Of a stretch of DNA of 64,000 nucleotides, positions 30,415-62,922 are shown piece after piece. Numbering within the stretch: position 1 is the first letter of the stretch; every line of letters starts with the position of its first letter. The DNA is from a virus: positions 20,880 to 84,879 of IMG/VR virus record IMGVR_UViG_3300020445_000983. One strand, 5' to 3'. Position numbers and translations under genes: made by a program. A model generated the notes under the pieces. It worked only from the letters and a program-made list of their open reading frames with translations, was not told the origin of the DNA and did no database searches.

Positions 30415-30457
30415 AATAGTTACGACGCTCGCGGGGTACACTTCAAAGGGTATTAGT

Positions 30458-32633: not shown

Positions 32634-33272
32634 TCAAAAAGGGGCGACGTTAAATGTTAACGAAATACGATTAGGATGCCCATTTCCTTCATATCCGTGT
32701 TGCATATTTGGGGGGTGAATGATAACATCTCCCTCGTTATATGGTACAGTACAATCTAATTGATTGAACGCATTTTGTGCTGTGTTGTTAACAACAACTA
32801 CAGGGTAATGTGTGCTGCTACAATGTCTACGAAATTTCATCATTGCGTGCTTAGATGGATCGAAGTTCACGAAATATGTGCCACTATATAACACATTGCT
32901 GTGCTCGTGTGGTGCATACATAGACCCCTCATTACCCAATTCTAAGTATGAATCAGTGAGTTTAATTGTATCGCCTAAATCATATGCTAGTGCGTCCTTA
33001 TTAGTCTTACTAATTGCCTCTAATATCATTTCCTTGATATCACTTAGTTCAGGCAATTCTAGGACATTGTTAACACCTAACTGCGATACTTTATGACTGA
33101 TAGCATATCTTTTATTATCGCTAATTTCAGTTAATGATGATATGTAATCCAGGATGATTTGCTTATGTTCAGTATGATTTTGATTGGTAAATCGTCCCAC
33201 TGGTTGCATAAACAATCCATAGACAGTTGGGTTCGCTATTTGTTCTAAACTGTCACTTAATTCTTCGCTCAT
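32634..33272 (-). CDS. 2OG-Fe(II) oxygenase-like protein, HxH type
   Basis: 212 residues, of the family with the core PHEHSNVLYSGTYFVNFD and EGDVIIHPPNMQHGYEGN (PF13759-like). The probable iron ligands are His122-x-His124 and His192; Arg202 (NRISLTFNV) would bind 2-oxoglutarate. The proximal acidic ligand is thus a His here, as in the proteins at 43413, 48472 and 62923. A terminator hairpin lies just upstream (33302-33325), so the gene may be transcribed by readthrough or from its own weak promoter. Substrate unknown. Confidence 0.75.
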   Translation of the reverse strand: MSEELSDSLEQIANPTVYGLFMQPVGRFTNQNHTEHKQIILDYISSLTEISDNKRYAISHKVSQLGVNNVLELPELSDIKEMILEAISKTNKDALAYDLGDTIKLTDSYLELGNEGSMYAPHEHSNVLYSGTYFVNFDPSKHAMMKFRRHCSSTHYPVVVVNNTAQNAFNQLDCTVPYNEGDVIIHPPNMQHGYEGNGHPNRISLTFNVAPF

Positions 33273-38256: not shown

Positions 38257-38264
38257 TATTTATA
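38257..38264 (-). promoter_or_regulatory. Late promoter TATAAATA
   Basis: Perfect T4-type late motif on the minus strand, 27 bases before the ATG at 38230 and immediately after the helicase stop. Confidence 0.7.
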
Positions 38265-40623: not shown

Positions 40624-41562
40624 TTATCCACTGGCATAACTGAGCACTCCAAGTCTCTTTTGAATCAGGTTACCATAATTCTCGTGCAACTCACAACCCA
40701 GATAATGCCTATTCAACTCCTTAGCAACCAGTGCAGTGGTGCCTGATCCTATAAATGGATCTAGTACCACGTCATCTTCACGTGATCCTGCCAGTATGCA
40801 AGGTTTAACCAAATCAGGTGGGAACGTAGCAAAGTGTGCACCCTTGTAAGGTCTATTTGTTATCTTCCATACACTACGTTTGTTCCTCTTATCATACACC
40901 ATTTTACGTGGTCTAGTTAACCCTGAGAAGGTGTTATTAGTGTCTTTAGTGTTATCCATATTGATGGGGTTATTGCCTCCCCAACGCTCTCCTACTGCCT
41001 TCTCCTTGATACTCTCGTGGTCATAATAATAGTTCTTATTCTTACTTAAGAGGAACAAATACTCGTGAGATTTAGTGCACCTATCTTTGACACTTTCAGG
41101 CATAGGGTTAGGTTTGTGCCATATTATATCCTGACGTAAATACCAACCATCTGCACGTAGTGCAAATGCTAACATCCAAGGGATGCCAATTAGATCCTTT
41201 TCTTTATATCCTTCTAACTTATTACCTCTCTTATTTGTATACTCTGGTAAGTCTTGGTTATTACTAGCAATAGTTTGTTGAGGATATGTTCTACTGCCTT
41301 TCCCAGGTCTATAATTATAGTAACTATCACCAATATTCAACCATAATGTGCCATCATCAGTAAGACAATCTCTCACTAATCTAAATGTTTTTACCATCTC
41401 TTGAATATACTCTTCTGGAGTAGATTCCTGTCCTATTTGTGATGCTTCGCCACCATAATCTCTTAGACCATAATAAGGTGGAGAAGTCACACACATTTGA
41501 CATTTAGTGGTGATATTCTTCAATGATTCTCTACAATCACCATAGAGAATTGTGTCTTTCAT
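40624..41562 (-). CDS. DNA methyltransferase, TSPPY type (beta class)
   Basis: 312 residues. Motif IV TSPPY at 26-30 lies before the S-adenosylmethionine motif DPFIGSGTT at about 268-276, the beta-class order of amino-methyltransferases; TSPPY favours N4-cytosine, although N6-adenine enzymes of this type exist. It modifies DNA and may protect phage genomes from host or self nucleases. No adjacent cognate restriction gene is present, though a PD-(D/E)XK candidate lies at 36616. It is the last clearly enzymatic gene of the oxidative cluster's apparent transcript. Confidence 0.88.
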   Translation of the reverse strand: MKDTILYGDCRESLKNITTKCQMCVTSPPYYGLRDYGGEASQIGQESTPEEYIQEMVKTFRLVRDCLTDDGTLWLNIGDSYYNYRPGKGSRTYPQQTIASNNQDLPEYTNKRGNKLEGYKEKDLIGIPWMLAFALRADGWYLRQDIIWHKPNPMPESVKDRCTKSHEYLFLLSKNKNYYYDHESIKEKAVGERWGGNNPINMDNTKDTNNTFSGLTRPRKMVYDKRNKRSVWKITNRPYKGAHFATFPPDLVKPCILAGSREDDVVLDPFIGSGTTALVAKELNRHYLGCELHENYGNLIQKRLGVLSYASG

Positions 41563-41567
41563 AATAA

Positions 41568-41897
41568 TTAGCGTTCATCAATAGGTGGTAACATATCATT
41601 ACCAGGATGTTCAACTATCTTGCCGTGATAGTTTCTGACGTTGCGAGGATAAAGAGATTCATCTATCTCAATATCTAACCAGTCACTTGCATATATTAGC
41701 ACATTACAGAACGTTTTGCCGTGTAATGCTTCAGGTGCATCAGTTTCGTGGGTGCAAATAGTAATATAATCATCACCAACAAATGATATGTATCCAGTGT
41801 GATCTTGGAATTTAATGTATGTACCAAGTTCGAGAGATTTAAGGATGTTTCTCATTTCTATTTGGATAGCGTTGGCAAGGAAAAGATTAATCGTCAC
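41568..41897 (-). CDS. Small hypothetical protein, GTG start
   Basis: 109 residues if started at GTG (41897), which overlaps the upstream TGA as GTGA; an ATG 14 codons later is the alternative. The sequence LGTYIKFQDHTGYISFVGDDYITICTH suggests a small beta barrel, seen in other cyanophage short proteins. The C-terminus is NYHGKIVEHPGNDMLPP. Function unknown. Confidence 0.6.
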   Translation of the reverse strand: MTINLFLANAIQIEMRNILKSLELGTYIKFQDHTGYISFVGDDYITICTHETDAPEALHGKTFCNVLIYASDWLDIEIDESLYPRNVRNYHGKIVEHPGNDMLPPIDER

Positions 41898-42466
41898 AAC
41901 ACATAGAATTGTAGCATATAACCATCCTGCTCACAATTATTATTACTTAATGAACAATTAATTGTTGATGGATAGATCATAAATGACCCTTCTTCTGGTT
42001 GATAACTAAACTTATTAGAATTAAGAGGATTATCAGATAAAAACTTCCATTTAGGTGACACTGAGTGCCAACTATTCCAAGGTGTTTCAAATGTTATTGT
42101 ACAATCAGGTTTGTGCATAAAATATAAACCAGTCAACAGAGTATGAGATATATTCTGTTGAAAATCAATAGTTTGATTAGGTTTAACTTTACGACAATAA
42201 TTATGTCCTAATTTATACTCAAACGCATCAATATCACAAGCAAGAAAATTAGATAAAAAATATTCTAGTTGTTGATGTATTAATACGTGCCAAGCACGAT
42301 ATATTTCAGCAACATCACGTTGAATAGTCTTACCAGTTTCACTATCATAAACTAATGTCCTACAGTGTTGTTTAAAACCATTTGAAACTTCGCTGTTAGT
42401 TATATACAACGGAGTGGCAAATGCTGGTACTATATCAATAGCATTAAATTGGATTCGGTTTGTCAT
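41894..42466 (-). CDS. Degenerate 2OG-oxygenase-like protein without metal ligands
   Basis: 190 residues. The C-terminal half aligns by pattern with the HxH-type oxygenases: QTIDFQQNISHTLLTGLYFM against QEKHLHPGWELAGVYYH of the protein at 62923, then EEGSFMIYPSTINCSL against the FPGWLEHS segment. At the two proximal His positions this protein has Gln and Ile, and at the distal His it has Cys. It therefore probably cannot bind iron and may be a pseudoenzyme or binding partner. It overlaps the neighbouring 82-residue gene by 23 bases and is coupled to the next gene. Confidence 0.55.
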   Translation of the reverse strand: MTNRIQFNAIDIVPAFATPLYITNSEVSNGFKQHCRTLVYDSETGKTIQRDVAEIYRAWHVLIHQQLEYFLSNFLACDIDAFEYKLGHNYCRKVKPNQTIDFQQNISHTLLTGLYFMHKPDCTITFETPWNSWHSVSPKWKFLSDNPLNSNKFSYQPEEGSFMIYPSTINCSLSNNNCEQDGYMLQFYVL

Positions 42467-42692
42467 AATGATGTTGTCTTAGGTGAAGTTCATCTACTAT
42501 CTCATCAATAATGTGTAGTTTCTCGTGTAATTCATTATCATCTATTCTGTTATCGCTATTTTGTTGATACAAACTACCGATATACATTGTAACTGCTTTA
42601 CGCAAGATTGCGATCTGTTCGTTGTTAAGAATACGAGACCTAATACCGTGCATTTGGGGTGCTACTGCGGGATGAATTGATAAGGGAGACAT
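42444..42692 (-). CDS. Small hypothetical protein
   Basis: 82 residues, MSPLSIHPAVAPQMHGIRSR, then helical (AILRKAVTMYIGSLYQQNSD, LHIIDEIVDELHLRQHHYD). A CTAAATAC late motif lies 24 bases upstream, so it may start a late sub-transcript with the genes that follow. Function unknown. Confidence 0.6.
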   Translation of the reverse strand: MSPLSIHPAVAPQMHGIRSRILNNEQIAILRKAVTMYIGSLYQQNSDNRIDDNELHEKLHIIDEIVDELHLRQHHYDKPNPI

Positions 42693-42715
42693 TGCAAATT
42701 ACCTGACCTGATAAT

Positions 42716-42723
42716 GTATTTAG
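42716..42723 (-). promoter_or_regulatory. Candidate late promoter CTAAATAC
   Basis: CTAAATAC on the minus strand between the genes at 42739 and 42692. A TATAAT also lies about 10 bases further upstream (GGGTATAATTTG). Confidence 0.45.
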
Positions 42724-42738
42724 TACTCAAATTATACC

Positions 42739-43413
42739 CTAAAGTAGAGGAATAAGCGAGAATTGGTCATCTGGGAGTGTAGGTTCTGTTAGAATATCAA
42801 AACCCAATGTTATCCTAGGTGAATCATCATAGTCTTCATTAACAACAACTCTGTGCATCCTTTCCCATCCTGGTCCAAAATATATGTTACCAACTACGTT
42901 CTCTATGTTATATTTAAGAGACCCTTGTTTGAATTCTGTTGTACTATTTTTAGGATCAATACTTACATATCCGTGATAAGGAAAATGATGATCGTGCCAT
43001 TTCAATACTTCATTTTGCTTATGAAAGTTCATCCAACATTGCATCCACAATGGTTGATTGTTGCCTAAAGTATCACGAACTACTTGTTTTATATTCTTAA
43101 ATAAGAACCAATATAATGGTGAGGGTGATGTTAAATTAAATACATTATAAAATCTATATCCAGACATATCTGCCTCTGCCATTTCTTTTATGGTACCCTT
43201 ATCTTCTGCTGATGTATCACTGAACAGCGTAGGTAATGCTGATAATGTAAAATTATCACTCTTTAAACTACTATCACATCCTGTAAATGTGTTTTTAAAT
43301 AGTCTATAACTACGTCCTAATTGTGTAATCATTTCTTGTTGCTCACGTTGAACAACTTCAGCACGATACAGTACCCAGTCGTCACCCTTTTCAATTAGAT
43401 TTAAATCAGACAT
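42739..43413 (-). CDS. 2OG-Fe(II) oxygenase-like protein, HxH type
   Basis: 224 residues. LKWHDHHFPYHGYVSID puts His140-x-His142 in the iron-binding turn; the distal His is probably His187 (WERMHRVVV) and the 2OG-binding Arg is Arg200 (SPRITLGFDI). The N-terminal half is helical and unlike the neighbours. It overlaps the upstream oxygenase gene by eight bases. Family PF13759-like; substrate unknown. Confidence 0.65.
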   Translation of the reverse strand: MSDLNLIEKGDDWVLYRAEVVQREQQEMITQLGRSYRLFKNTFTGCDSSLKSDNFTLSALPTLFSDTSAEDKGTIKEMAEADMSGYRFYNVFNLTSPSPLYWFLFKNIKQVVRDTLGNNQPLWMQCWMNFHKQNEVLKWHDHHFPYHGYVSIDPKNSTTEFKQGSLKYNIENVVGNIYFGPGWERMHRVVVNEDYDDSPRITLGFDILTEPTLPDDQFSLIPLL

Positions 43414-44020
43414 TACTATATGCTCCGTTGGTTGGTGGTGTATCTTTTGAAAGATTTATATTAACAACTGGTCTCCATTTTGTTGATGGAGTTGTTGATG
43501 AGTGGAATAAATCACCTTGAAATATGACAGCACGTCCTTTCTTTGGTGGTATTCTAGTCATTTCAGTGAACTCACCCTTGCTAAGAATAGATTGATATTC
43601 TTGATCGCTTAAGGTACGCTCGTTGTAAATAACTGTATCGCCATCACTGTCATCAATATAATATACCACATTCCAAGAATCCTTAACATAACTATCAATA
43701 TGGGGTAATTGTATATGATTAGCGAACATATTGGGGACACAATTTATTCGCATACGCATCAAATTGTAGCATTTAACTTGCTCCATTGCCATAAGAGATA
43801 AGGGAGTGAAAGCATTACATAAGGGTGACAGATTCCCTCCTTTATCCATTTCAAATAGATAATGAAAATTACAGAAACCATTGCGAGGATCTCCCTCCAG
43901 TTCCTCCATAATGGCACTGTCCTTCCTATGCCACGTTAGATTCTCATCTTTAATTAATGCTATCAACCATTCTTGATAGATTGGTGGTATGAGATCATCC
44001 ACCACATAAAAGTCATTCAT
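43406..44020 (-). CDS. 2OG-Fe(II) oxygenase, HxD type
   Basis: 204 residues with a complete triad: His107-x-Asp109 (LPHIDSY), distal His173 (FQGDLFHSSTTP) and Arg183 (KWRPVVNINL). The ILxYYxNDSDGDTxxY-type strand (VYYIDDSDGDTVIYNE) matches the proline-hydroxylase-like group. Its ATG overlaps the stop of the upstream oxygenase (ATGA). Clearly related in pattern to the gene at 47826. Substrate unknown. Confidence 0.8.
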   Translation of the reverse strand: MNDFYVVDDLIPPIYQEWLIALIKDENLTWHRKDSAIMEELEGDPRNGFCNFHYLFEMDKGGNLSPLCNAFTPLSLMAMEQVKCYNLMRMRINCVPNMFANHIQLPHIDSYVKDSWNVVYYIDDSDGDTVIYNERTLSDQEYQSILSKGEFTEMTRIPPKKGRAVIFQGDLFHSSTTPSTKWRPVVNINLSKDTPPTNGAYSNV

Positions 44021-44730
44021 AAGAGTTCAACCTCAGCAAGATCATCTTCATAATTTTCTTCAATTTGTCCAGGTCCCTCAGCAGGTCCATAGTACACGTC
44101 ATTATTTTGTCTTCGTTGACAAGTAATGACCTCCTCACTTGCTGACTCCCAAGGTGCTGCAAGCATTGGTCTACCATCATATTTTAGTCTAGCATACTCT
44201 CCATTTTGCTCTACGTATGAAACAAAGCACTGTATCTGTGACCCCTTCCCTTCATACTTCTCTCTCCAATGTAAATCCTCGTGTCCTCTGAATATACAAG
44301 AATCACCCTCATTTAGAAATATCTCATATTTTTTATTCTGTACTATTATTTGCATTGCCCAAGGATAGTCTGGATCTTCACTAACACATATATTACCAAC
44401 CCATTCACCTGACATTCTATCTCTATGTTTGACGCAAGATGTACCCTCAACATATAATCTACCATAACAAAATGTCTGCCATAATGGTATGTTACCTATA
44501 ATCTTCTCAACTATTGGTTGTTGATATTGTCCTAGTGCTTCAAAACATACAGGGCAGTACATACTCCAAGCACCAGGCATTGTGGGATCTCCCAGGTCAG
44601 CATTGGGATATTGCCATTTAATTACATCCTTCATCATATGATATTCCATTGCTACGTGTTTACATAGTTCTTTTGGTATCATATTACGAACGATCCACAT
44701 TCGTCCTTCGATAATAGTTTCTATATTCAT
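44017..44730 (-). CDS. 2OG-Fe(II) oxygenase-like protein
   Basis: 237 residues. His102-x-Asp104 (CVKHRDRMSGEW), and a GDSCIFRGHEDLHW segment whose His150 or His154 would be the distal ligand. The usual Arg is not obvious (GKGSQIQCFVSYV). The C-terminal 40 residues are polar and acidic (GPGQIEENYEDDLAEVE). ATGA overlaps at both ends show tight coupling in the operon. Confidence 0.65.
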   Translation of the reverse strand: MNIETIIEGRMWIVRNMIPKELCKHVAMEYHMMKDVIKWQYPNADLGDPTMPGAWSMYCPVCFEALGQYQQPIVEKIIGNIPLWQTFCYGRLYVEGTSCVKHRDRMSGEWVGNICVSEDPDYPWAMQIIVQNKKYEIFLNEGDSCIFRGHEDLHWREKYEGKGSQIQCFVSYVEQNGEYARLKYDGRPMLAAPWESASEEVITCQRRQNNDVYYGPAEGPGQIEENYEDDLAEVELL

Positions 44731-45356
44731 ATTGCCTTCGCAAAGAATACTAAGGTGAGTCTACCAGTAGTTATATTATCACCAAAGAAGTCACCAGCAG
44801 AGTGATACTTTTGACCATCAAATAACAGGCATCTATTATATCTTGCCTCACATATAGTATTTGAAGTAAATGGTCTATTCTTCTCTCTTATCATCTTATT
44901 ACCTTCAGCACGCACATCTTCATCATCAGTTAATACATTAGATTTGAAGTCCTCAGTATACCCTACTCGGTCATCATTCTCTGGTACATCATATAATATA
45001 GTACCACACCCATTTGTATAAGTTTCGTTCAAATATATCATTCCACCTACACCAAACTGTGCAGAGTCTCGATGTACCCAACCACAGTCGTAATTACCAG
45101 TACAAAGATGAAACGTAGACTCTAATCTTTCGAATTGAGTATATCCAGGTAGATAATCTATGAGTTTAGAACATAATCTTTGATGGAAATGATAGTCTAA
45201 TTCGTGTAACAAATGACTTGATCTTTTCCCTGGCCAATTACCTTTAGCAGGGTGATCTTTGCACACTAAGTAATCTAAACTAAGTGCCCAGTTCCTAATC
45301 ACAGAGGGCGTTTCAAAGAAATTGTCTATTATTACTGTAGGAATTTGATTGGGCAT
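44727..45356 (-). CDS. 2OG-Fe(II) oxygenase-like protein (DUF6445-like)
   Basis: 209 residues. His95-x-Asp97 (GWVHRDSAQ), His185 (FDGQKYHSAGDFFG) and Arg199 (TGRLTLVFFAK) complete the facial triad and the 2OG-binding site. The N-terminus VIIDNFFETPSVIRNWAL resembles the DUF6445 group, which I have seen next to halogenases. It overlaps its upstream neighbour by 25 bases. Substrate unknown. Confidence 0.72.
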   Translation of the reverse strand: MPNQIPTVIIDNFFETPSVIRNWALSLDYLVCKDHPAKGNWPGKRSSHLLHELDYHFHQRLCSKLIDYLPGYTQFERLESTFHLCTGNYDCGWVHRDSAQFGVGGMIYLNETYTNGCGTILYDVPENDDRVGYTEDFKSNVLTDDEDVRAEGNKMIREKNRPFTSNTICEARYNRCLLFDGQKYHSAGDFFGDNITTGRLTLVFFAKAI

Positions 45357-46033
45357 TGTGGTCGGTCACCAAACATTAGGGTCTTAGATAGATGAGGGAT
45401 GAGATTCTTGAGGTTAACTCGCTTCTCACCCATATCTATTCGTTCTTGTGTAGGTTTAGATTTCACTAAACGGTACTCTTGCATCATATTATTCTCTTGA
45501 TAAAATGCAACACGATAGATAGGATCACCTCTCTTAATTATAAGAGGTTTAGTTCTATCTATTATATCAACTGCAAATGACAGTGGTCTCTCCCATTGAG
45601 ATAAGTTCCACCTCCCAGAGATCAGATTGAAATTATTATTGAGTGCTGTGAGTCCTGTATCCTTCTGCTCTACCCATATATTCTTTGCCTTTGTCCACAT
45701 CATAATCTTAGGGATGAACATTTGTATTGAAGGATGTATATGCCAATCCTTAATTGGTAATACAAATCTATCAAATAGTCCTACAAGATTAGGTGAGTTG
45801 ATACTCTGATTCTCATAATCAAACTCTAATGTTAAATCTCTAGGTGCATAGACAGTGAACTCTCTCTTTGTTAAATGTGACCAAGCAGGGCATTTATAGT
45901 ACTTTAATTCATTAGTCTTCTCATCAATATGTCTTGTTGGTTCAATCCCAACACCATCTATCTCTAATGATGACTTGAGAGCATCATAAGCACCACCTTC
46001 GAATTGATAATAATATATGTCAACCATTGCCAT
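45332..46033 (-). CDS. Unknown protein, paralogue 1 of three (DUF6065-like, tentative)
   Basis: 233 residues, beta-rich. The pattern YYQFEGGAYDA, KCPAWSHL, REFTVYAPRDL, NNNFNLISGRWNLSQW, IIKRGDPIYRVAFYQ is shared with the gene at 47300, and more distantly with 49525. No catalytic motif is seen; the ending VxKRGDPIYxxxFYQ looks like a cupin-like or jelly-roll strand pair. DUF6065 is my best recollection of the family and needs a search. The HNH gene overlaps its start by 14 bases. Confidence 0.6.
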   Translation of the reverse strand: MAMVDIYYYQFEGGAYDALKSSLEIDGVGIEPTRHIDEKTNELKYYKCPAWSHLTKREFTVYAPRDLTLEFDYENQSINSPNLVGLFDRFVLPIKDWHIHPSIQMFIPKIMMWTKAKNIWVEQKDTGLTALNNNFNLISGRWNLSQWERPLSFAVDIIDRTKPLIIKRGDPIYRVAFYQENNMMQEYRLVKSKPTQERIDMGEKRVNLKNLIPHLSKTLMFGDRPQCPIKFLQ

Positions 46034-46544
46034 TCTTTTTCCTTTGACTGGAATTACCTAATGGTGATGTCCATCTTAAATTATCAATATGATTATTTGA
46101 CGTGTCTGCGTCAATATGGTCAACATAAGCAGATTCTCTTACAAATTGCTTCATTGATTCAGGTGACTTATCCCAATCTGCTTTAGGAACAGGTGGATGC
46201 TCATCAATAGGTTCCCAGGTCTCCTTTACCGCTCTATGATATCTAATATTAACTTTACTGTGTTTTGAACTAACTTGTCCTGCACCATTGGTGGATGCAA
46301 CATAATCATATTCCTTAAAGAATCCTATAGGAACACTCAAATTAACAGCAAGAGGTCTAGCATATGTTCCTTTTACCCCACGCTCTTCAACTAACTGTTT
46401 TCTTGTATGATCTAACATTTTGGGAGTACCTCTTCCCTTTGTTCGTTTGTTGCTAAGAATTTTACCACACTTACTCACATAATAATCTGGTATTTCCCTT
46501 CCCTTATGAATGAGTGGTTTGAACTCGATGTTGTTAAAAAGCAT
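46020..46544 (-). CDS. NUMOD4-HNH homing endonuclease
   Basis: 174 residues from the ATG at 46544. NUMOD4-like N-terminus (IPDYYVSKCGKILSNKR) and a C-terminal HNH core, VDHIDADTSNNHIDNLRW followed by TSPLGNSSQRKKN. It is free-standing and lies exactly between two paralogous genes (47300 and 46033), overlapping the second, which looks like an insertion into the cluster. Such enzymes spread by cutting homologous loci that lack them. Confidence 0.85.
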   Translation of the reverse strand: MLFNNIEFKPLIHKGREIPDYYVSKCGKILSNKRTKGRGTPKMLDHTRKQLVEERGVKGTYARPLAVNLSVPIGFFKEYDYVASTNGAGQVSSKHSKVNIRYHRAVKETWEPIDEHPPVPKADWDKSPESMKQFVRESAYVDHIDADTSNNHIDNLRWTSPLGNSSQRKKNGNG

Positions 46545-46580
46545 TTTCAAATTGCAAACTATAGTAATTGTACCATAAAA

Positions 46581-47300
46581 TCAACCATTGAACAACCACC
46601 CGAAGGGACATTTCTCTTCCTTGTCTTTAAAGATGAGATCATCAGCAAGATGAGATTGAAAATGTTTCACCTTCATTCTCTTATACACATCTAATAGTAA
46701 TTCAGTATGTGGTCGTGCCTTCTCCATTTTAAATGTCTGGTCAAGATTGTCCTCTTGATAAAATGCTAATTTATAAATCGGATCTCCACGTTTAATAACA
46801 ACAGGTTCATTTGGATCACATATATTAAATCCAAATGATATTGGTCTACACCAAGATGATAAATTAAACCAACCATTTGTTAGTGTGAAATTATTATTAC
46901 GTGATGTCATTGGGTGATCTTTAACTTCAACCCATACTCTCTTTGATTCAGTCCAACATAGTACCATTGGACACATTATTTGAATTGTTGTTATCGGTGG
47001 TTTTTTATTTTCTACCTTAACATAATTATTAACCTCTTCATTGGTCATACTAGGTGAACCAACTGCACCTCTTTCATTATCAATATGCAATATTATTTCA
47101 CGAGGTGCATAAACTATAAACTCTCTTGAGTTCTTATGCCTCCAAGCAGGACATTCCCAATTGGGTGTATTCCCAGGTGAGTAAGTTTCGAGAACTTTTT
47201 TTGGTTCAAGACCAACTCCATCCACATCTATACAAGAATCCCAAGCATCAAGAGTATTATGTACTCCTTCATATTGATAGTAATTAATCTTGACAGACAT
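46581..47300 (-). CDS. Unknown protein, paralogue 2 of three (DUF6065-like, tentative)
   Basis: 239 residues. It aligns by eye with the gene at 46033 over its whole length: YYQYEGVHNTLDAWDS, ECPAWRHKNSREFIVYAPRE, NNNFTLTNGWFNLSSWCRP, VVIKRGDPIYKLAFYQED. The C-terminus ends KEEKCPFGWLFNG, close to RPQCPIKFLQ of the paralogue. It overlaps the upstream oxygenase by 17 bases. It probably arose by tandem duplication before the HNH insertion. Function unknown. Confidence 0.6.
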   Translation of the reverse strand: MSVKINYYQYEGVHNTLDAWDSCIDVDGVGLEPKKVLETYSPGNTPNWECPAWRHKNSREFIVYAPREIILHIDNERGAVGSPSMTNEEVNNYVKVENKKPPITTIQIMCPMVLCWTESKRVWVEVKDHPMTSRNNNFTLTNGWFNLSSWCRPISFGFNICDPNEPVVIKRGDPIYKLAFYQEDNLDQTFKMEKARPHTELLLDVYKRMKVKHFQSHLADDLIFKDKEEKCPFGWLFNG

Positions 47301-47826
47301 AGTTGAAATTAATGACGATTCTATTTGTAGCGAGGGTAGGACAGGACGATGCGTGCATTTTTAAACCATCAAAAATAACGAGTTTCCCCTTCTCTGGTTT
47401 AATGGTTTGCTCAATCTCACCATTCTTTGCAAAAAAGTGAGTATCACCGTCAGAATCATTCACATAATACAGTGCTGTAGTATGTGGAATCTCTGCATCT
47501 ATATGTGGCATATTATAACCTATCCTTGTAGGTAATAGCAACCCTCCCTTAACTCTCAGTAGTTCGTGTTTAGGAGTTGGGACAAACGAGAGAAAAAGTG
47601 GAAATAAAAAATCCCAATATTGATCCTCTATCTTATTATCTCTATCGTAGAACATATGTGCAAATCCTGGAGTGCTCTGAGCATTAGGATACCTGCTCCT
47701 CATCTCACTGGTGTAAGCATATGTTACATCACTCAATAGATGCCAATCAAATCTAACATTGGACATCATTGAATGAATCTTGTCCTGATATAGTTCAGGT
47801 ATAATATCTCTTCTTACTTCAATCAT
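47284..47826 (-). CDS. 2OG-Fe(II) oxygenase, HxD type
   Basis: 180 residues from the ATG at 47826 (MIEVRRDIIPELY); the open frame extends 13 residues further into the upstream gene. Triad His108-x-Asp110 (MPHIDAEIPH), His158 (FDGLKMHASSCP) and Arg169 (TNRIVINFNY). The strand ALYYVNDSDGDTHFF matches the gene at 44020, so these two are probably sister genes. Substrate unknown. Confidence 0.8.
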   Translation of the reverse strand: MIEVRRDIIPELYQDKIHSMMSNVRFDWHLLSDVTYAYTSEMRSRYPNAQSTPGFAHMFYDRDNKIEDQYWDFLFPLFLSFVPTPKHELLRVKGGLLLPTRIGYNMPHIDAEIPHTTALYYVNDSDGDTHFFAKNGEIEQTIKPEKGKLVIFDGLKMHASSCPTLATNRIVINFNYVCQD

Positions 47827-48472
47827 TGCCACCGTACATAATTGCAAGACAGACTCTATCATCATCTGACTGTGATGGTTCTGTTCTATGTTTCAACCAA
47901 CCAGGAAATACCAGGACATCACCCGTTTCAACGGGTATAGTTTTCCACAGATCTAACTGTGGTTCTCCAGGTGATCCCCATCTATGATATTCATAAGGAT
48001 CTCTAAATTGAAAGTGCCCTGAATTAGTAGAGTGCTTAAGATATGCAGAGATAACTAAAGGACAACCATTGTGGTGGTGCTCCATAGTCATTCCACTTCT
48101 CTTGTGTGTATTAACCCAAGATCTAATAGGTACAGGTTGACCACTACCATAATCCCAGTGATTCCACAATGCGTGGAGATATGGTTGCATATGATTTATA
48201 AATGGTTGCAGTATCTCCCAGTAATGTGGTTGATGCTCAACATTATATGCAGTTGAGAAAGCATTACCAGTTTCTAATGCTGCACCAGTACCAGTATTTT
48301 GAATGGTATGGTCAATTAGTTTTCCACAATGCTCTTGCAATGATGTACCATCATATTTAAAATCATATTTAAATCTCCACAACCAGTGTGGAGATACAGG
48401 AATAGTTTCTTGCTCTTTTAATATGTCAAGCAGATGTCCCACCAATAACCTCCATTTCTTCGGTACCTCCAC
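47819..48472 (-). CDS. 2OG-Fe(II) oxygenase-like protein, HxH type
   Basis: 217 residues if started at GTG (48472), which overlaps the upstream gene by 47 bases; no ATG start exists in the N-terminal part, so the start is uncertain. GMTMEHHHNGCPLVISAYL places His132-x-His134 in the iron turn; the distal His is His195 (FPGWLKHRTEP) and Arg206 follows (DDDRVCLAIMYGG). The FPGWLxHxTxP segment is shared with the gene at 62923. Confidence 0.7.
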   Translation of the reverse strand: MEVPKKWRLLVGHLLDILKEQETIPVSPHWLWRFKYDFKYDGTSLQEHCGKLIDHTIQNTGTGAALETGNAFSTAYNVEHQPHYWEILQPFINHMQPYLHALWNHWDYGSGQPVPIRSWVNTHKRSGMTMEHHHNGCPLVISAYLKHSTNSGHFQFRDPYEYHRWGSPGEPQLDLWKTIPVETGDVLVFPGWLKHRTEPSQSDDDRVCLAIMYGGND

Positions 48473-48737
48473 CAGTCTGGTCGAGATCAGTTAATGATGG
48501 CATTGCAGTATCAGAGTCATCACCTAATACATCTCTCTTACATATTAACAGTGCATCAATAGCACCTTCAAGTTGTGACTTACGTTTAAATGCGTCACTA
48601 CGCTTCTCAAATTCGATAGTGGTAACACCATAAGGATTTAGTTTCTTATCACTAAACTCCTTATCATAATTTTCAATATCTACATCACACTGTTGCTTCT
48701 GTAGATAGAAGTTTTGTATAAGTTCATCAATAGTCAT
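48426..48737 (-). CDS. Small hypothetical protein
   Basis: 103 residues, MTIDELIQNFYLQKQQCDVD, helical, with a polar acidic C-terminus (DLDQTGGGTEEMEVIGGT). A GTG start for the next gene lies inside it. Function unknown. Confidence 0.6.
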   Translation of the reverse strand: MTIDELIQNFYLQKQQCDVDIENYDKEFSDKKLNPYGVTTIEFEKRSDAFKRKSQLEGAIDALLICKRDVLGDDSDTAMPSLTDLDQTGGGTEEMEVIGGTSA

Positions 48738-49525
48738 AGTTTTTCTCCGTCAGAGTGGTACTTAATGGTTTTCATTGCACGTGATATTCTACCTTGTACA
48801 TTGTCGTGAATCATATATTCCGACTTGATAGAATAATTAAATGCTGCTTCTAACTCCCAGTCTTTAGCATTAGCAGGTTCTTGAACTACATCATACCAAT
48901 CTCTTTCGAGGTAAGTTCTGGGTATTGGTATATATTGTGCTATAGGTGTACCTGCTTTAACAAGTGTACCTTCTGGACCTGTGTCCATTTCGTGCCACAT
49001 TAACTGCACATTCATTTGTAGTGCAAAGCGTGGATCGAATACACCAGTAACTGCTTCAAAGCGTGATTCATTATTCCAATGAACTGGTGATTGTAGCATC
49101 ACAATATCATCAGATGCTCTAACCCTCCAAGGTAATTCCATCTTAATAATATGTGCAAGAGTATCTCTTGGACTATCTATCAATGGCATTACTTGTTCAG
49201 GTGCGTGATCTGAAATGTAGTTGCTGTGTCTCTGGAATGTATTTGGTACTTCATATTGAAATGACATACCATCACCATTAGTAATTATAATGAAATCCAT
49301 TGGTGCAACAACTGTCCAACCAAGTCGGGCAATCTGCTTAATACCAGGACAATTTGAAGAGTTCTGTGATCCTTGTAATGGGCACCTTCTCTTCTTGACA
49401 GCAGGATCTAACCACTGTCTCTTAACTTTGCTGGTTGGTATCAGTGGATAGCACTCAGCAAGACCAGGTTCTAATGAATAGAATCTAACCCAAGGTTTCT
49501 TCTTTTTGAAGAAGTTAAAATTCAT
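48734..49525 (-). CDS. Unknown protein, divergent paralogue 3 (DUF6065-like, tentative)
   Basis: 263 residues. Same order of motifs as the genes at 47300 and 46033, but diverged: a Cys-containing KRRCPLQGSQNSSNCPG, TVVAPMDFIIITNGDG, SRFEAVTGVFDPRFALQMNV, LVKAGTPIAQYIPIPRTYL. The last resembles the VxKRGDPIYxxxFYQ strand of the paralogues. Its start overlaps the preceding stop. The xKxGxPIxQxxP motif is the best reason for the DUF6065 idea. Function unknown. Confidence 0.55.
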   Translation of the reverse strand: MNFNFFKKKKPWVRFYSLEPGLAECYPLIPTSKVKRQWLDPAVKKRRCPLQGSQNSSNCPGIKQIARLGWTVVAPMDFIIITNGDGMSFQYEVPNTFQRHSNYISDHAPEQVMPLIDSPRDTLAHIIKMELPWRVRASDDIVMLQSPVHWNNESRFEAVTGVFDPRFALQMNVQLMWHEMDTGPEGTLVKAGTPIAQYIPIPRTYLERDWYDVVQEPANAKDWELEAAFNYSIKSEYMIHDNVQGRISRAMKTIKYHSDGEKL

Positions 49526-49713
49526 CTTTCTAACTTCTCCTCTACTATATCCATAAGATGCTCAAACTCTTTAAGATGCTCTAAATCATATAGTAACTTA
49601 GATATTTGAGTTACAACCAATGGTTTTTCATTAGTAGCAGCAGACTTAATTGCTGATCTGATACTCCCTTCTGCTTCAAGTAAGTAGTCTAATGTTTGTT
49701 TAGATAGTGCCAT
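49522..49713 (-). CDS. Small helical hypothetical protein
   Basis: 63 residues, MALSKQTLDYLLEAEGSIRS, continuing as amphipathic helices (LLYDLEHLKEFEHLMDIVEE). It lies two bases after the halogenase stop, clearly in the same transcript. I recall similar short cyanophage proteins; no function is known. Confidence 0.65.
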   Translation of the reverse strand: MALSKQTLDYLLEAEGSIRSAIKSAATNEKPLVVTQISKLLYDLEHLKEFEHLMDIVEEKLER

Positions 49714-49715
49714 AA

Positions 49716-51359
49716 TTAATCAATAAGTTCAGGTCTGATGTCATCTCCCTTGTAGATGTTATCACGTAGGTATTCATAATGAGATGGACATTCATCACTG
49801 GTAACGAAATCCTCCACCTCTTTAGTATACTCTAGATGCTTCTGTTCGAGATATTCTAATTCTTTAGGATCACGTGGATTATAATAATCCTTGCCTAATA
49901 TCATACCATTTCCTGCTGCCACATAATTCATCCCACCCATTCCTGTGTCCAAACCGTGATCCAGATCTAGTGCACTTCCCAGGCGTTCATAATTGTCATT
50001 GATACGTATAAGTCCATCCATCTCTTTCCATAGGTACTCATTAATTTGAGTACACCATCTCCAATATGGATTATCATCACGTCCACTAAGTGCATAGTGC
50101 ATAGCAACGAACTTATTGAATCCTATTACCTCACGTTGAGCAGAATAGTTAAACCATTGCCGTTCAAGTCTGGTAATATATCCTCTTCTTCTGTTGAGTA
50201 CATCAACAAGTCTAAGGATATTCTCGTGTGTGGTTAATAGTCCTGTTGACTCTAATGGTTCAACAAAACCGTATGATAACCCAATACCAACAACATTCAA
50301 GTTCCACGCTTTCTCGTGATATCCATTCTTAACATCAACCTCCTTCACTTCATACTCGTCAGGAGTGACACCAAACTTGTTCTGTATCCAAGTTTCAAAC
50401 TCAGGTATTACCTCAGTGCTCATTGCAAATCGTGATGACCAACAATAACCAACTCCTACTCTATCCCATAGAGGTATAGTCCACGCCCAACCATTTGACA
50501 TTGCCTGGCAATCAGTCACGCAGTGCATTATCTCTTCACGTTCTTCCTGTGTCTTATAAGGAATACGTGCATATAATGCTCTATCATTAGCAAGGTCATC
50601 AAACTTATTAAACCTAGTACCTAACTGTTGTTCTAATAGTACACTAGAGAATCCAGTGCAATCAACAAATAGGTCACCAACAACACCAACTGTTCTCTTA
50701 TCTTCAATCAAACGAACAGCAAGTTGTTTAATAGTTCTATTAGACTCAGCAGGTGATCCACCTCTTACAATATCTTTAACGGTACCACGTACTTCACCTA
50801 CAATATGTGTGAATCTACCTTCATATTGATAGCATACATTCTCACGTAAATACTGACCAAACTTCTCAGCATCTAAATGATATGCTACCTCAGTTCTCCA
50901 ATCAAAACTTCTAAACCTATTGTCTCTATTATCCCACTGTTTGTTATGTTTAACTAATGCACTCTGCTCTGTATTATAGAACTCAGCGAATGTCCCAGGT
51001 GTCCATTTTTCAGGGTCATTACGTGCTAAATCAAACCAGTCATTAAGTCCTTTAATCTTATCTATAAAATCAAACTCTCCAAATGGATACTGGAATGTTT
51101 CCCCTATTTGACTGAAATCAGTGAACTGAATACTATTTTTATATGTTGCATTACAGTATGGCATCCAGTCCTCATCTTTGAGTCCTAATGCAATCAAATA
51201 CTTATTAAAATGTCCTAGTGTACTCTCACCTACACCTATTGGTGGTTTATCACTTTCGATTAATACTACATTAACCCACGGACACAACTTCAGTAATGCA
51301 GCAGCAGTCATCCATCCAGATGATCCACCACCAACAATAACAACATTTTCAACCTTCAT
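49716..51359 (-). CDS. Flavin-dependent tryptophan-halogenase homologue
   Basis: 547 residues, full length for the family. FAD-binding GGGSSG at 10-15 (VIVGGGSSGWMTAAAL), the catalytic-type Lys74 in NATYKNSIQF (equivalent by pattern to Lys79 of PrnA), WAWTIP at 291-296 and FVEPLESTGL at 365-374, whose Glu367 matches the active-site Glu, are all present. These enzymes use FADH2 and O2 to make a hypohalous acid that halogenates an aromatic substrate; a flavin reductase partner is not visible in the window. The cyanophage Syn10 homologue VirX1 prefers iodide. It is preceded by a terminator and three TATAAT hexamers, so it probably starts its own transcript with the oxygenase genes behind it. Substrate unknown. 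Confidence 0.9.
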   Translation of the reverse strand: MKVENVVIVGGGSSGWMTAAALLKLCPWVNVVLIESDKPPIGVGESTLGHFNKYLIALGLKDEDWMPYCNATYKNSIQFTDFSQIGETFQYPFGEFDFIDKIKGLNDWFDLARNDPEKWTPGTFAEFYNTEQSALVKHNKQWDNRDNRFRSFDWRTEVAYHLDAEKFGQYLRENVCYQYEGRFTHIVGEVRGTVKDIVRGGSPAESNRTIKQLAVRLIEDKRTVGVVGDLFVDCTGFSSVLLEQQLGTRFNKFDDLANDRALYARIPYKTQEEREEIMHCVTDCQAMSNGWAWTIPLWDRVGVGYCWSSRFAMSTEVIPEFETWIQNKFGVTPDEYEVKEVDVKNGYHEKAWNLNVVGIGLSYGFVEPLESTGLLTTHENILRLVDVLNRRRGYITRLERQWFNYSAQREVIGFNKFVAMHYALSGRDDNPYWRWCTQINEYLWKEMDGLIRINDNYERLGSALDLDHGLDTGMGGMNYVAAGNGMILGKDYYNPRDPKELEYLEQKHLEYTKEVEDFVTSDECPSHYEYLRDNIYKGDDIRPELID

Positions 51360-51376: not shown

Positions 51377-51409
51377 ATTATATAGGGCATTATATAGATC
51401 CATATTATA
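51377..51409 (-). promoter_or_regulatory. Triple TATAAT region before the halogenase
   Basis: On the minus strand TATAAT occurs at 51404-51409, 51389-51394 and 51377-51382. The last two lie in a perfect 10-base direct repeat CTATATAATG with a 12-base period. No good -35 is visible. Confidence 0.5.
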
Positions 51410-51413
51410 CCAG

Positions 51414-51438
51414 AAAATCCCCCCATTGGGGAGATTTT
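51414..51438. terminator. Hairpin between fibre genes and halogenase
   Basis: AAAATC, a mismatch, CCCC, loop ATT, GGGG and GATTTT pair as a 6+4 stem, with T-rich flank on the minus strand. It lies after the stop of the gene at 51463 and could work in both directions. Confidence 0.55.
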
Positions 51439-51462: not shown

Positions 51463-51987
51463 TTATGTGCCTAGTTCATCATAGGTACGACCCCATCCTG
51501 AGAAACGTTCCCAGATTGGTGCATCTATTGTAGCACGTTTTGCTGGTCTTGTCGTTGCTGGTTCAGCAGCATCACCCATAAAATCAGCAATTTCATCATC
51601 AGTCATCGTTGGATCCATTGGTTCCGCTACAGATGATGGTGATGTTGTGTTCTCTTTAATTGCTTTGATGTGATTAAACCACAGAGCATCTCCAGCATCT
51701 AATGCTTTACCTGCTGCTAGGTCTTTGTATAACATATCCAATTGTTCCCCGACCTCACCATAAGCAACTTTGCGAATGGTACCAGGATCTGAGTATGCGT
51801 CAGTACGCTTAACCCATATTGCATCATTAGCAGAAGGAGACCATTCTAGTGTCCAATCTTTTGTGATGTCATCAGGTGCATTAACCCACATTTGGGAACA
51901 ACCACGTCCTAAGAATAGTACGTACTCTTCACCAGGGTCTACGATGTCGGCAACTGCGCCGTTGAAATCCATTAATGCTTTCTTCAT
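51463..51987 (-). CDS. Fibre-associated protein with chaperone-like motif
   Basis: 174 residues. The segment IRKVAYGEVGEQLDMLYKDL followed by KALDAGDALWFNHIKAIKEN resembles a motif found near the end of many phage fibre or fibre-assembly proteins (YxxxGEQLDMLYxDL...W..HI..IK). The C-terminal part is Ala/Pro/Asp-rich. It is the last gene of the fibre block, before the terminator. Structural part or assembly factor cannot be decided here. Confidence 0.55.
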   Translation of the reverse strand: MKKALMDFNGAVADIVDPGEEYVLFLGRGCSQMWVNAPDDITKDWTLEWSPSANDAIWVKRTDAYSDPGTIRKVAYGEVGEQLDMLYKDLAAGKALDAGDALWFNHIKAIKENTTSPSSVAEPMDPTMTDDEIADFMGDAAEPATTRPAKRATIDAPIWERFSGWGRTYDELGT

Positions 51988-51994
51988 TGTTCCC

Positions 51995-52795
51995 CTATTT
52001 GTAGTTGATAACGCAGACTACACCATATTTACCGTTAGATCCACGGAAACTATGGAAGTGTCCACCTGATCCACCAGCACCATATGCAGCGTGGTCTTGA
52101 TGGTTATGACTGAAGTTACCACCATTTGGCCAACCACCAGCAACTGAACCACCGAAGTGAGATGTACCTCCGATTCCTCCACCACCACCGTGGTGAGATT
52201 GTCCACCTCCACCCCAGACATTCAAGTCTCCACCAGAACCATTACGTCCTAGTCCACCTGAGTGTCCACTGTTTCTATTAGCACCGTGTCCACCACCAGC
52301 AGATAGGTAAGGACCGAAAGATGATGAACCACCATCTCCACCGTGACCGAAGTACCAGGTACCTCCACCACCTCCACCGATTGATATACCAACGGAACCA
52401 ATACTATTAACGTCTAAAACTCTTTCAGAGTATCCACCAGCAGCACCTGATTCTCCGTGCCCTGACGCTCCTCCTCCACCTCCTTGTACTCGTACGTGTA
52501 TGTACTTGACACCAGATGGTTTGTTCCAGGTACCGTTACCTGTCCATACTTGTAGTGATTGAATGTTCTCTCCACCTCCAGCAGCCCATTGCATCGATGA
52601 ACCGTCGTTAGAAAGAAATTTACCACTCTGACCTGACACCGAAGGTACAATCTGACTAGAAGATCCAGACATCGTACCATTAATGGTGATGTTACTGACT
52701 GTCAGTGCTCCGTTCGCTGTTATGTTACCTGAAGCAAGGGAGAATCCGCCAATGCCTGAGAGGTCTCTAATAGATGCAACTTTAAGTGTACTCAT
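51995..52795 (-). CDS. His- and Gly-rich tail-fibre adhesin candidate
   Basis: 266 residues. N-terminal fibre-like part (IRDLSGIGGFSLASGNITAN), then VWTGNGTWNKPSGVKYIHVR, followed by about 130 residues of Gly-rich sequence with short GGGGGG runs, like the polyglycine sandwich of T-even gp38-type adhesins. At least 13 His lie in it (SHHGGGG, FSHNHQDHAAYG, GGHFHSFRG). It is probably a receptor-binding tip; the His may bind metal. Late promoter TATAAATA lies 25 bases upstream. Confidence 0.75.
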   Translation of the reverse strand: MSTLKVASIRDLSGIGGFSLASGNITANGALTVSNITINGTMSGSSSQIVPSVSGQSGKFLSNDGSSMQWAAGGGENIQSLQVWTGNGTWNKPSGVKYIHVRVQGGGGGASGHGESGAAGGYSERVLDVNSIGSVGISIGGGGGGTWYFGHGGDGGSSSFGPYLSAGGGHGANRNSGHSGGLGRNGSGGDLNVWGGGGQSHHGGGGGIGGTSHFGGSVAGGWPNGGNFSHNHQDHAAYGAGGSGGHFHSFRGSNGKYGVVCVINYK

Positions 52796-52819: not shown

Positions 52820-52827
52820 TATTTATA
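52820..52827 (-). promoter_or_regulatory. Late promoter TATAAATA
   Basis: Perfect late motif on the minus strand, 25 bases before the ATG at 52795. Confidence 0.7.
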
Positions 52828-52830
52828 CAA

Positions 52831-53409
52831 TTAGGTTGGGCGAGTATAACCTTCTGGTAGGAAGGGTTGATCTCTGTCCCATTGATCATCATCTGGTTTG
52901 TAACTATCGTGATAAGTTACTTGTTGTGTTTTTGGTGCTACAAATGAATCAGGAGTGTCATCATCAATACCAATAGTTATATTTAGGGTATCATTAATGA
53001 CTTCATTCTCCTCATTACACCAAAATAACATATCGTAGTTTTCACCTGATTCCAGATTTTTGATGTTGAAGTCTGTTAAAAATGCTTCATTAGACTTCTC
53101 TGGACCCACCCACTCGTTAGAGTAAACTACTTCTTTCACTTCTTTAGATTTATCAACGTTCTCAATGACTCGTTGAATTGTAATACCATACCTAAGATTA
53201 ACAAAGGTACAATCCATACTATGATTTTTTCTAAAACCTATTCTACACTGTACATCTGGATGAGTAACCTGATATCCACTGATCTCACATACATTACGTG
53301 CGAGATGAAAACATACAGTTATTAAATTAGGTCTGTCGTCATACTTAATCGGTTGACCTTCAATATAAACGTAATCGTCGTGATCTGTTGCGGGATTTTG
53401 TGTTGCCAT
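52831..53409 (-). CDS. Hypothetical virion-associated protein
   Basis: 192 residues, beta-rich (YVYIEGQPIKYDDRPNLITV, CRIGFRKNHSMDCTFVNLRY), acidic towards the end (NEENEVINDTLNITIGIDDD). It lies between the two glycine-rich fibre genes, six bases after the first. Probably structural; not recognised. Confidence 0.6.
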   Translation of the reverse strand: MATQNPATDHDDYVYIEGQPIKYDDRPNLITVCFHLARNVCEISGYQVTHPDVQCRIGFRKNHSMDCTFVNLRYGITIQRVIENVDKSKEVKEVVYSNEWVGPEKSNEAFLTDFNIKNLESGENYDMLFWCNEENEVINDTLNITIGIDDDTPDSFVAPKTQQVTYHDSYKPDDDQWDRDQPFLPEGYTRPT

Positions 53410-53415: not shown

Positions 53416-54387
53416 TTAAGGTAATTTGTAACCGAATACAATGACACCAGTTTCACCGTTACAGTCACCAGCACCATTGCGTCTACCATTAGGATCACTA
53501 CCTGGTGAACAGTTACTACCTGCCCAAGTACCTCCTCCTAATCCTTGTCCTGTGAGATCTCCCTCATCAGCACCTGCCCAATTGGATCCACCACCGCCAC
53601 CAGCAGCACCATTGCAGTCACAACCTGGATTACCACCGCAATTTCCTGCACGATATCCACCGCCACCGCCACCTCCTCCAGAGGCATCGTTACCTGGTCT
53701 TCCACACTCATCACCATTTGAGTCACCATTATTTCCAGTCGCTCCACCTTGAGATCCACACTGTCCGTTGGATCCTCTTTGACCACCAGCACCACCGTGA
53801 CCTGCACCACTACATCCTTCTCTACCTCCTCCACCGCCGCCACCAGCACCGACGAGTTTCACATTACCCATACCCCAACCATTTAGGAAGACCATAGAAG
53901 CAGCACCGCCTCCACCTCCTCCAGCAGAGCATCCACTACAAGAAGCGTGAGTACCATTACCACCTGTACCATATCCTGAACTATTAGAACCGCCGCCACC
54001 GCCGCCCCAACATCCATAACATCCATTACCTCCACCACCGCCTCTACCGACAGCAGTGTACAATATATTTCCTGCCTCTACAGTAATGGTAGTACGAGCA
54101 CTACCTCCACCGCCTCCATTATTTCCTCCTTGACCACCTCTTCCACCAGCAGCACCCCACGCCCAAATGGTAATAGCACCACCTGCACTAATATTTAACT
54201 GTGAGGTTCCACCTGATTGAAATCTATGAAATCTATAAGTTCCGTCTGCAAATCCTTCGTTCCACTCAGAACCACCAGATGCTTGTACATAACTGAATGA
54301 TGCTCCTCCACCCCCACCTTGACCACCTGTTGCACTAGGTCCAGAGGCAGTAGGAATGAATTTTGCACTCATACCAAAACGTCCCAT
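53416..54387 (-). CDS. Cys- and Gly-rich tail adhesin candidate
   Basis: 323 residues. After a short lead (MGRFGMSAKFIPTASGP) and a beta segment FADGTYRFHRFQSGGTSQLN, most of the protein is Gly-rich with runs of Gly and 12 Cys (NGCYGCWGG, HASCSGCSAGG, AGNCGGNPGCDCNG). The end GETGVIVFGYKLP matches the usual end of phage Gly-rich fibre proteins. AAGGAG precedes the ATG. It probably forms a polyglycine-type tip; the Cys could form disulfides or bind metal. Confidence 0.75.
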   Translation of the reverse strand: MGRFGMSAKFIPTASGPSATGGQGGGGGASFSYVQASGGSEWNEGFADGTYRFHRFQSGGTSQLNISAGGAITIWAWGAAGGRGGQGGNNGGGGGSARTTITVEAGNILYTAVGRGGGGGNGCYGCWGGGGGGSNSSGYGTGGNGTHASCSGCSAGGGGGGAASMVFLNGWGMGNVKLVGAGGGGGGGREGCSGAGHGGAGGQRGSNGQCGSQGGATGNNGDSNGDECGRPGNDASGGGGGGGGYRAGNCGGNPGCDCNGAAGGGGGSNWAGADEGDLTGQGLGGGTWAGSNCSPGSDPNGRRNGAGDCNGETGVIVFGYKLP

Positions 54388-54397: not shown

Positions 54398-55252
54398 TTA
54401 AGGTACATCGTAATTACCACCCGATCCCAATACTGTGAAAGGTTGGGTGTCATACTGTTGGTTAATAATAGCAAGGGAACATACAGCAACTTTCTTGTCC
54501 TGACCAGGTTGTGAACCACCTGCCCAGAGTATAGTATGTCCGTTACCGTTGATATTTAGTCCACTAGGTAGTCCTGAACCACCCATATCATAAACAATTA
54601 CGGTGATACCGTAACCACAAGATTCATAAGGAACATTATTTAATGATAACGTAAAGTTACCACCACCTGTCTTATTGATCCAGATTACGTTATTATCGTT
54701 AAAGTCGTGTGTTACGTTACCACTAGAGTTATAATATGTTATCGATTCTTTTGTCTCACTGAAATGTAGTATTCCAGTTGATGTAATATGTCCTGACGTA
54801 ATATCTACAAATTGTGCGTATGATAGGTCATCGTCTCCAAGTAATGTCCAAGATGCGTCTGTCTCAATGGTTACTGTAAATCCGTTCGCAATTTCTATTG
54901 GACCAGCAGTAAAACCATTTGTAAATTCTGCTCCACCGTTAAAGACAGGACCAATTGTTATATTTTCTTGTATCGTTGTACCGTTGGTTCTAATGATTGA
55001 ACCTTCACCTAATGAAGGACCACCTCCACCAACGTCATCCCATCCTGGGTTACCAGCATTGGCATCTGCCTTATAGATCTGTGCCATATCCTCGGTACTG
55101 TTGTACACGAGAGTACCATAGGCAGGAGTTCCCAGAGCATTTATCTGAGACTGATTTAATGGTGGTAAGTTTAATTGTTCTGAGATTGACCAGGCAGTAA
55201 CTAGACCTCTAGTCGCTGCTTGTATCTGACCTTCTCTTATTTTAGTTGTCAT
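54398..55252 (-). CDS. Tail-fibre-like virion protein
   Basis: 284 residues. N-terminus MTTKIREGQIQAATRGLVTA, then a segment typical of cyanophage fibre proteins (YGTLVYNSTEDMAQIYKADA), a Gly hinge (DDVGGGGPSLGEG) and a beta-rich C-terminal half. CTAAATAG lies just upstream. Adjacent to the large structural gene at 58852 and the Gly-rich genes, so probably part of the fibre. Confidence 0.7.
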   Translation of the reverse strand: MTTKIREGQIQAATRGLVTAWSISEQLNLPPLNQSQINALGTPAYGTLVYNSTEDMAQIYKADANAGNPGWDDVGGGGPSLGEGSIIRTNGTTIQENITIGPVFNGGAEFTNGFTAGPIEIANGFTVTIETDASWTLLGDDDLSYAQFVDITSGHITSTGILHFSETKESITYYNSSGNVTHDFNDNNVIWINKTGGGNFTLSLNNVPYESCGYGITVIVYDMGGSGLPSGLNINGNGHTILWAGGSQPGQDKKVAVCSLAIINQQYDTQPFTVLGSGGNYDVP

Positions 55253-62151: not shown

Positions 62152-62159
62152 TATTTATA
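62152..62159 (-). promoter_or_regulatory. Late promoter TATAAATA
   Basis: Perfect late motif on the minus strand, 29 bases before the ATG at 62123. Confidence 0.7.
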
Positions 62160-62668: not shown

Positions 62669-62884
62669 CTTCCTAATTAATTCACTCAGAGAAAGTCCCA
62701 GTCTATCAACTGAATCTGCCATTTGTCTGTATCCCGTACCTACATAGACCTGACCACTTGTAACAGCAACGGCACAGATACCCCAGAACCAGTAATACCA
62801 CTTGGACTTTACCTGATGTTTTTTTAACCATTTTAAGGTGGGAGATTCGCTCCCATCTTTTTTTGTCTGTTGAAAAAGAGCCAT
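62660..62884 (-). CDS. Small membrane protein
   Basis: 74 residues. Basic N-terminal half (KWLKKHQVKSKWYYW), then one membrane segment, WYYWFWGICAVAVTSGQVYV, and a polar tail (DRLGLSLSELIRKSN). One-pass inner-membrane protein by appearance, N-terminus likely inside. Function unknown. Confidence 0.65.
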   Translation of the reverse strand: MALFQQTKKDGSESPTLKWLKKHQVKSKWYYWFWGICAVAVTSGQVYVGTGYRQMADSVDRLGLSLSELIRKSN

Positions 62885-62894
62885 TTCTAAAGGT

Positions 62895-62902: not shown

Positions 62903-62922
62903 ATTTTAGTAGATTCTATATT

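Follow-up and report, generated by a model that had tools for sequence, protein, structure and literature searches.

The stretch of DNA analysed here (the window; 64,000 nucleotides (nt), part of the incomplete 84,879-base IMG/VR virus record IMGVR_UViG_3300020445_000983) carries, next to its tail-fibre genes, a VirX1-type halogenase gene followed by a block of 2-oxoglutarate (2OG)-Fe(II) oxygenase genes. This module is real and recurrent: its catalytic residues are intact, its gene order is conserved, its genes co-occur across genomic contexts and late-type promoters are found in relatives, while its members are of known kinds and their order can be read in public genomes. We regard it as an even call whether this phage-specific module serves the late oxidative tailoring of a tail fibre rich in glycine, histidine and tyrosine. 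The fuller proposal, in which the halogenase, the oxygenases and a dUTPase-fold adaptor would form a late virus-encoded system that halogenates and hydroxylates one protein substrate, the virus's own receptor-binding fibre, is more tentative, and we put it somewhat below even.

Halogenase and oxygenases of the module

The halogenase, described in an earlier reading of these letters (the sequence-only reading) as a tryptophan-halogenase homologue, indeed matches Pfam family PF04820 (E 1e-82), and its best solved relative is VirX1 (PDB 6QGM, E 5e-142). The GxGxxG motif, catalytic lysine, WxWxIP motif and active-site glutamate are present, each at or near 100% in 91 homologue rows, with the catalytic lysine and glutamate at 100%. 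Viral halogenases, including the syn9 copy, form one clade (support 98/95) apart from cellular halogenases, and judging by its sequence the window protein belongs to this VirX1 clade of flavin-dependent (tryptophan-type) enzymes. At cellular halogenase loci, no match to PAR1, YorD or the Gly-rich proteins (Table 1) was found. Many contigs (L105, L115, L124, L145 and relatives) carry one or two extra opposite-strand halogenases after the 2OG block, and a human faecal phage contig (L400, MT835646) has two halogenase homologues, one per strand.

The six 2OG-oxygenase-like genes and one degenerate relative counted in the sequence-only reading are correct by motifs, although only four pass Pfam cut-offs (OX1 and OX2, and via DUF6445 OX3 and OX4). 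The Fe(II) ligands (HxD/H...H) and the distal arginine are kept in six of the seven, and OX1–OX5 each match a family profile in Pfam or PHROG. The degenerate OX6 has Q103, N105, C171 and G182 at positions that are H, H, H and R in 98% of relatives. The gene named 'ferrochelatase' in PHROG would be oxygenase-like by its motif alone, which includes an arginine two residues past the distal histidine; profile comparisons of this protein and of OX5 with OX2 were not significant, and profile searches returned no PDB relatives for any of these three. With their catalytic residues intact, the halogenase and OX1–OX5 look functional. Along with 'DNA endonuclease V' and 'minor coat protein', the PHROG name 'ferrochelatase' was treated as a mis-annotation, as the proteins bear oxygenase motifs; these misnomers are carried by PHROGs 274, 1644 and 2954 and appear in GenBank/RefSeq records. 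Three more 2OG-oxygenase-like genes lie outside the cluster (29842–30441 and 32634–33272, minus strand; 62863–63687, plus strand), the last upstream of the fibres and on the strand opposite to them.

Recurrence of the gene order

Relatives' loci were collected in searches that kept the best 80 loci. The order (1.2-kaa fibre)–fibre–Gly-rich fibres (one to three)–YorD-like–halogenase(s)–PAR1–2OG block was seen in the isolates syn9, Syn10, S-CREM1, S-RIM44 and P-TIM40 and in well over 100 IMG/VR contigs. Viral contigs were anchored on PAR1, YorD, T284 and OX3 as well as on the halogenase, and the neighbours were the same from each. Homologues of the halogenase, of PAR1, of YorD, of one fibre gene and of one 2OG family are thus not scattered but keep their neighbours, which supports the sequence-only proposal that the enzymes form a coordinated oxidative system connected with the fibres.

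Of the halogenase-anchored loci, 38 distinct ones had 4 kb or more of sequence to either side; Gly-rich genes were present in 29 of them, YorD in 27, PAR1 in 25 and at least two 2OG genes in 31, indicating that a majority of the phage VirX1-type halogenases, though not every one, lies in the fibre-linked layout. Conversely, a halogenase was present at all YorD-anchored loci, at 80/80 PAR1-anchored loci and at all T284-anchored loci with enough downstream sequence; the OX3-anchored loci lacking one were truncated by the contig end. A VirX1-type halogenase also occurs in 20/20 YorD-bearing isolate records and in 12/12 with a close Gly-rich fibre. The YorD–halogenase order is kept in 148 distinct pairs (median gap 37.5 nt), and deep branches of the phage halogenase clade (L039, for example) retain GR-GR-GR-YorD neighbours. 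The genomic site of the unit differs between phages, at least two being in use: after gp5 and transfer RNA genes (syn9, S-CREM1) or beside the neck genes gp13–gp15 (S-RIM44, Sf-CH11). In two contigs (L074, L078) the unit lies beside an inverted YorD-GR-GR-GR block. 2OG genes also lie at the fibres of the halogenase-less S-TIM4 and S-SM1 and at the second fibre locus of S-RIM44. In one contig (L037, 8165–9391) a protein without Pfam match, from a group of 408–441 amino acids (aa), stands between YorD and the halogenase; this group occupies the same interval in L029, L034, L038, L039 and L045 (another phage group).

This recurrence shifts the unit relative to the sequence-only reading, which had set its boundary at the halogenase: the Gly-rich fibres and YorD upstream also belong, and the methyltransferase that it had included is a variable neighbour among relatives. 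Methylase, helicase and HNH genes are neighbours rather than constant parts. Their variation within the region, the occurrence of 2OG genes in replication regions too, and earlier proposals of roles in DNA repair or 2-oxoglutarate/nitrogen signalling (PMC3037559) would suit unrelated auxiliary genes gathered singly at a recombination hot spot by the fibres. We consider this explanation unlikely, if the best-surviving of the alternatives, because the YorD–halogenase–PAR1 linkage is strict over 35–45% identity, across genomic sites and despite inversion, and because internal late promoters are absent.

Late-type expression signals

In relatives, the T4-type late promoter TATAAATA was found at most 60 nt upstream of 45 of 349 Gly-rich genes (2.2 expected), 33 of 148 YorD genes (1.9) and 23 of 330 halogenase genes (3.6), mostly 28–39 nt from the halogenase start, and before none of about 950 2OG-type genes. 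Such a distribution would be expected of a late operon with fibre or halogenase genes at its head. Within the module region of the window, GR2 alone is preceded by TATAAATA, and a hairpin (fold z –2.5) separates this promoter from the halogenase. This hairpin and three TATAAT hexamers, taken in the sequence-only reading to set off the transcript, are present, but across the window the hexamer is no commoner than expected (80 seen, 86 expected), so that the three are only putative promoters. With TATAAATA ahead of GR2, and TATAAT hexamers plus a hairpin ahead of the halogenase, transcription in the window is something that we only infer. The nearest downstream long-stem terminator-like site, an 8-pair hairpin with T tract at 40202–40183 (minus strand), seems a likelier operon end than 40624. 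The window's only two other exact TATAAATA sites (38257–38264 and 62152–62159, both minus strand) lie 27–29 nt 5′ of open reading frames (ORFs) for a 136-aa protein (38230) and a 441-aa fibre-like protein (62123).

A candidate fibre substrate and a possible adaptor

The Gly-rich proteins contain 24% glycine, with histidine, tyrosine, asparagine and proline conserved in the C-terminal domain. GR2, the proposed enzyme substrate, matches PHROG tail-fibre families, one of these matches falling at the C-terminus of a long fibre. Searches with the Gly-rich fibre gave no PDB match, and the YorD-like protein yielded neither a PDB fold match nor a Pfam match. In S-SZBM1 virions gp51–gp54 were detected, and the Gly-rich proteins, YorD and halogenase were not among the detected proteins (PMC9146016). 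Absence of the enzymes fits a catalyst; that of the Gly-rich proteins could be real, or could stem from modification or a scarcity of tryptic sites.

The three paralogues noted earlier are real, with PAR2 and PAR3 40% identical and PAR1 only distantly related to them (hhalign E 0.0024, probability 12%). The AlphaFold model of PAR1 (pLDDT 91.5) has dUTPases as its best fold match (TM 0.64 by target), and the protein shows motif-3-like (G161..D164) and motif-4-like (GTP..Q) patterns. Compared with the dUTPase family, it nevertheless lacks the five motifs and a significant sequence match (best profile E 0.57) and has extra N- and C-terminal parts. Trimers are common among dUTPases and among tail fibres. 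As VirX1 is a trimer too (PMC8407142), we guess that PAR1 may be an adaptor that presents the trimeric fibre to the enzymes.

Possible roles of the module

Fibre tailoring could proceed as follows. Late in infection, the Gly-rich, His/Tyr-rich fibre-tip proteins and the small, fibre-associated YorD-like protein would be made, and then the halogenase and the 2OG oxygenase set. Newly made fibre would receive halogens on its aromatic side chains from the halogenase and hydroxyl groups on side chains from the oxygenases, with PAR1, through its usually trimeric dUTPase-like fold, possibly offering the fibre to these enzymes. Such modification might change adhesion, stability or receptor specificity. 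If so, host recognition in abundant marine phages would depend on fibre chemistry that is invisible to sequence alone.

Several points weigh against this proposal. We infer fibre modification from linkage only, fibre regions are cargo hot spots, and common descent within a single phage family may account for much of the synteny, the listed loci being the best 80 per search. Halogenases lie away from fibres in S-B64, S-MbCM6, HTVC008M and a few contigs; in S-B64 the fibres are accompanied by a weak Gly-rich/YorD pair, and the halogenase is elsewhere in the genome. P-SSM2 carries 2OG genes in its replication region, the window's own halogenase is not preceded by TATAAATA, and VirX1 was assayed on small molecules (PMC8407142).

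VirX1 accepts diverse small aromatics, as would suit the production, during infection, of a small halogenated and hydroxylated metabolite (toxin, antibiotic or signal), comparable to the jumbo-cyanophage cluster or prnA-like genes. Iyer et al. 2021 predicted a metabolite for the S-SSM6a halogenase, 2OG and carbamoyltransferase genes (PMC7824862), and one contig (L017) has a luciferase-like monooxygenase and an ORF read, by eye only, as a carbamoyltransferase. Carbamoyltransferase, ligase, carrier protein and sugar enzyme are, however, absent among the cluster's matched Pfam/PHROG families, the constant partners are fibre genes and relatives have late promoters, so that a metabolite appears rather improbable. 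Least likely is that the enzymes act on a receptor, lipopolysaccharide or outer-membrane protein at the host surface, for instance so as to prevent re-adsorption, with the fibres sharing the receptor: this would predict linkage to receptor-binding genes and the sequence-only reading listed this option, but the relatives' late promoters are late for exclusion and Pfam/PHROG matched no transport gene in the module (signal peptides were not searched).

Features of the region

All cluster genes are on the minus strand (Table 1) and, as described earlier, mostly overlap (4–47 bases), with short gaps as well. The HNH gene, unmentioned in the sequence-only reading, is rare among relatives (4 matches) and is probably a homing-type insertion, not a module member. 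The photosystem gene PF00124 was not found in the incomplete 84.9-kb record.

Table 1. Features of the module region and the adjoining fibre genes, in window coordinates
Feature	Position	Strand	Remark
Long tail fibre, 1191 aa	55277..58852	-	S-SZBM1 gp52 (1192 aa) at equivalent position in gene order
Fibre protein 'T284'	54398..55252	-	Homologue is S-SZBM1 gp51
Gly-rich fibre protein GR1	53416..54387	-	
Fibre-cassette protein, 192 aa, variable member	52831..53409	-	
T4-type late promoter TATAAATA, 25 nt 5′ of GR2	52820..52827	-	
Gly-rich fibre/adhesin GR2, conserved His and Tyr abundant	51995..52795	-	PHROG tail fiber assembly
YorD-like small protein, 174 aa, candidate fibre-assembly factor	51463..51987	-	Linkage to halogenase and fibres
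Hairpin, YorD/halogenase interval	51419..51434	-	
Three TATAAT hexamers 5′ of halogenase	51377..51409	-	
VirX1-type flavin-dependent halogenase	49716..51359	-	GxGxxG, K74, WxWxIP, E370 intact
ORF, 63 aa, phrog_1179	49522..49713	-	
PAR1, predicted dUTPase-like fold	48734..49525	-	Halogenase-linked in every viral contig examined
ORF, 103 aa	48426..48737	-	
2OG-Fe(II) oxygenase OX1	47819..48472	-	PF13759
2OG-Fe(II) oxygenase OX2	47284..47865	-	PF13640
PAR2, distant PAR1 relative	46581..47300	-	phrog_17480
HNH endonuclease	46020..46550	-	Between PAR2 and PAR3
PAR3	45332..46033	-	40% identical to PAR2
2OG-type oxygenase OX3	44727..45356	-	DUF6445
Oxygenase-like protein, PHROG name 'ferrochelatase'	44017..44730	-	Invariant H102xD104...H154
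2OG-type oxygenase OX4	43406..44020	-	DUF6445
2OG-type oxygenase OX5	42739..43413	-	PHROG 2OG E 5e-8
ORF, 82 aa, phrog_712	42444..42692	-	
Degenerate 2OG-oxygenase relative OX6	41894..42466	-	Iron ligands lost
ORF, 109 aa	41568..41897	-	
DNA N4/N6 methyltransferase	40624..41562	-	Variable neighbour

Comparison with known systems

The sequence-only reading knew of no described phage system of this make-up. The layout is, however, visible in the published genomes of syn9 and S-CREM1, and a related but different jumbo-cyanophage cluster has been described (PMC7824862). As a fibre-linked module it appears undescribed within the papers that could be searched, among which none was found tying halogenase, 2OG oxygenases or prolyl hydroxylase to tail fibres. 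Auxiliary metabolic genes, as catalogued in earlier work, include halogenases and 2OG genes (PMC3037559, PMC2984593, PMC10452541, PMC9964418).

The jumbo-cyanophage cluster of S-SSM6a and S-SSM7, for which metabolite synthesis or polysaccharide decoration has been predicted (PMC7824862), also combines a halogenase with 2OG enzymes, near fibre genes in S-SSM7. Unlike the window it has carbamoyltransferases and heptose/sugar genes and no YorD or PAR1 match, and its halogenase is only 29% identical to that of the window. The carbamoyltransferase and HemK-like methylase core (Iyer 2021) found no Pfam/PHROG match among the window's cluster genes.

The 2OG blocks behind the fibres of S-TIM4 and S-SM1, published as auxiliary metabolic genes, share the window's place and families, the 'ferrochelatase'-named one included, but have no halogenase or Gly-rich match, and the one YorD-like match in S-TIM4 is weak and lies elsewhere. 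During experimental evolution of S-TIM4, the 2OG gene ORF23 was among 20 mutated genes, mostly structural (PMC6224464); it adjoins tail fibre ORF24 and YorD-like ORF25. Cyanophage 2OG oxygenases are among the most multiplied auxiliary genes, with roles so far speculative (DNA repair, nitrogen signalling), and the tie of halogenase and 2OG enzymes to one fibre type offers a hypothesis testable in cultured syn9, Syn10 and S-CREM1.

Closest to the window is VirX1 of Syn10 (6QGM), to which its halogenase is about 45% identical over the full length, with like catalytic residues. VirX1 is an iodinating enzyme studied in isolation on small molecules, its native substrate being unreported in the accessible part of that work (PMC8407142). 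A link to fibres would offer this characterised enzyme a natural, testable role, and Syn10 likewise has the YorD, PAR1 and Gly-rich genes.

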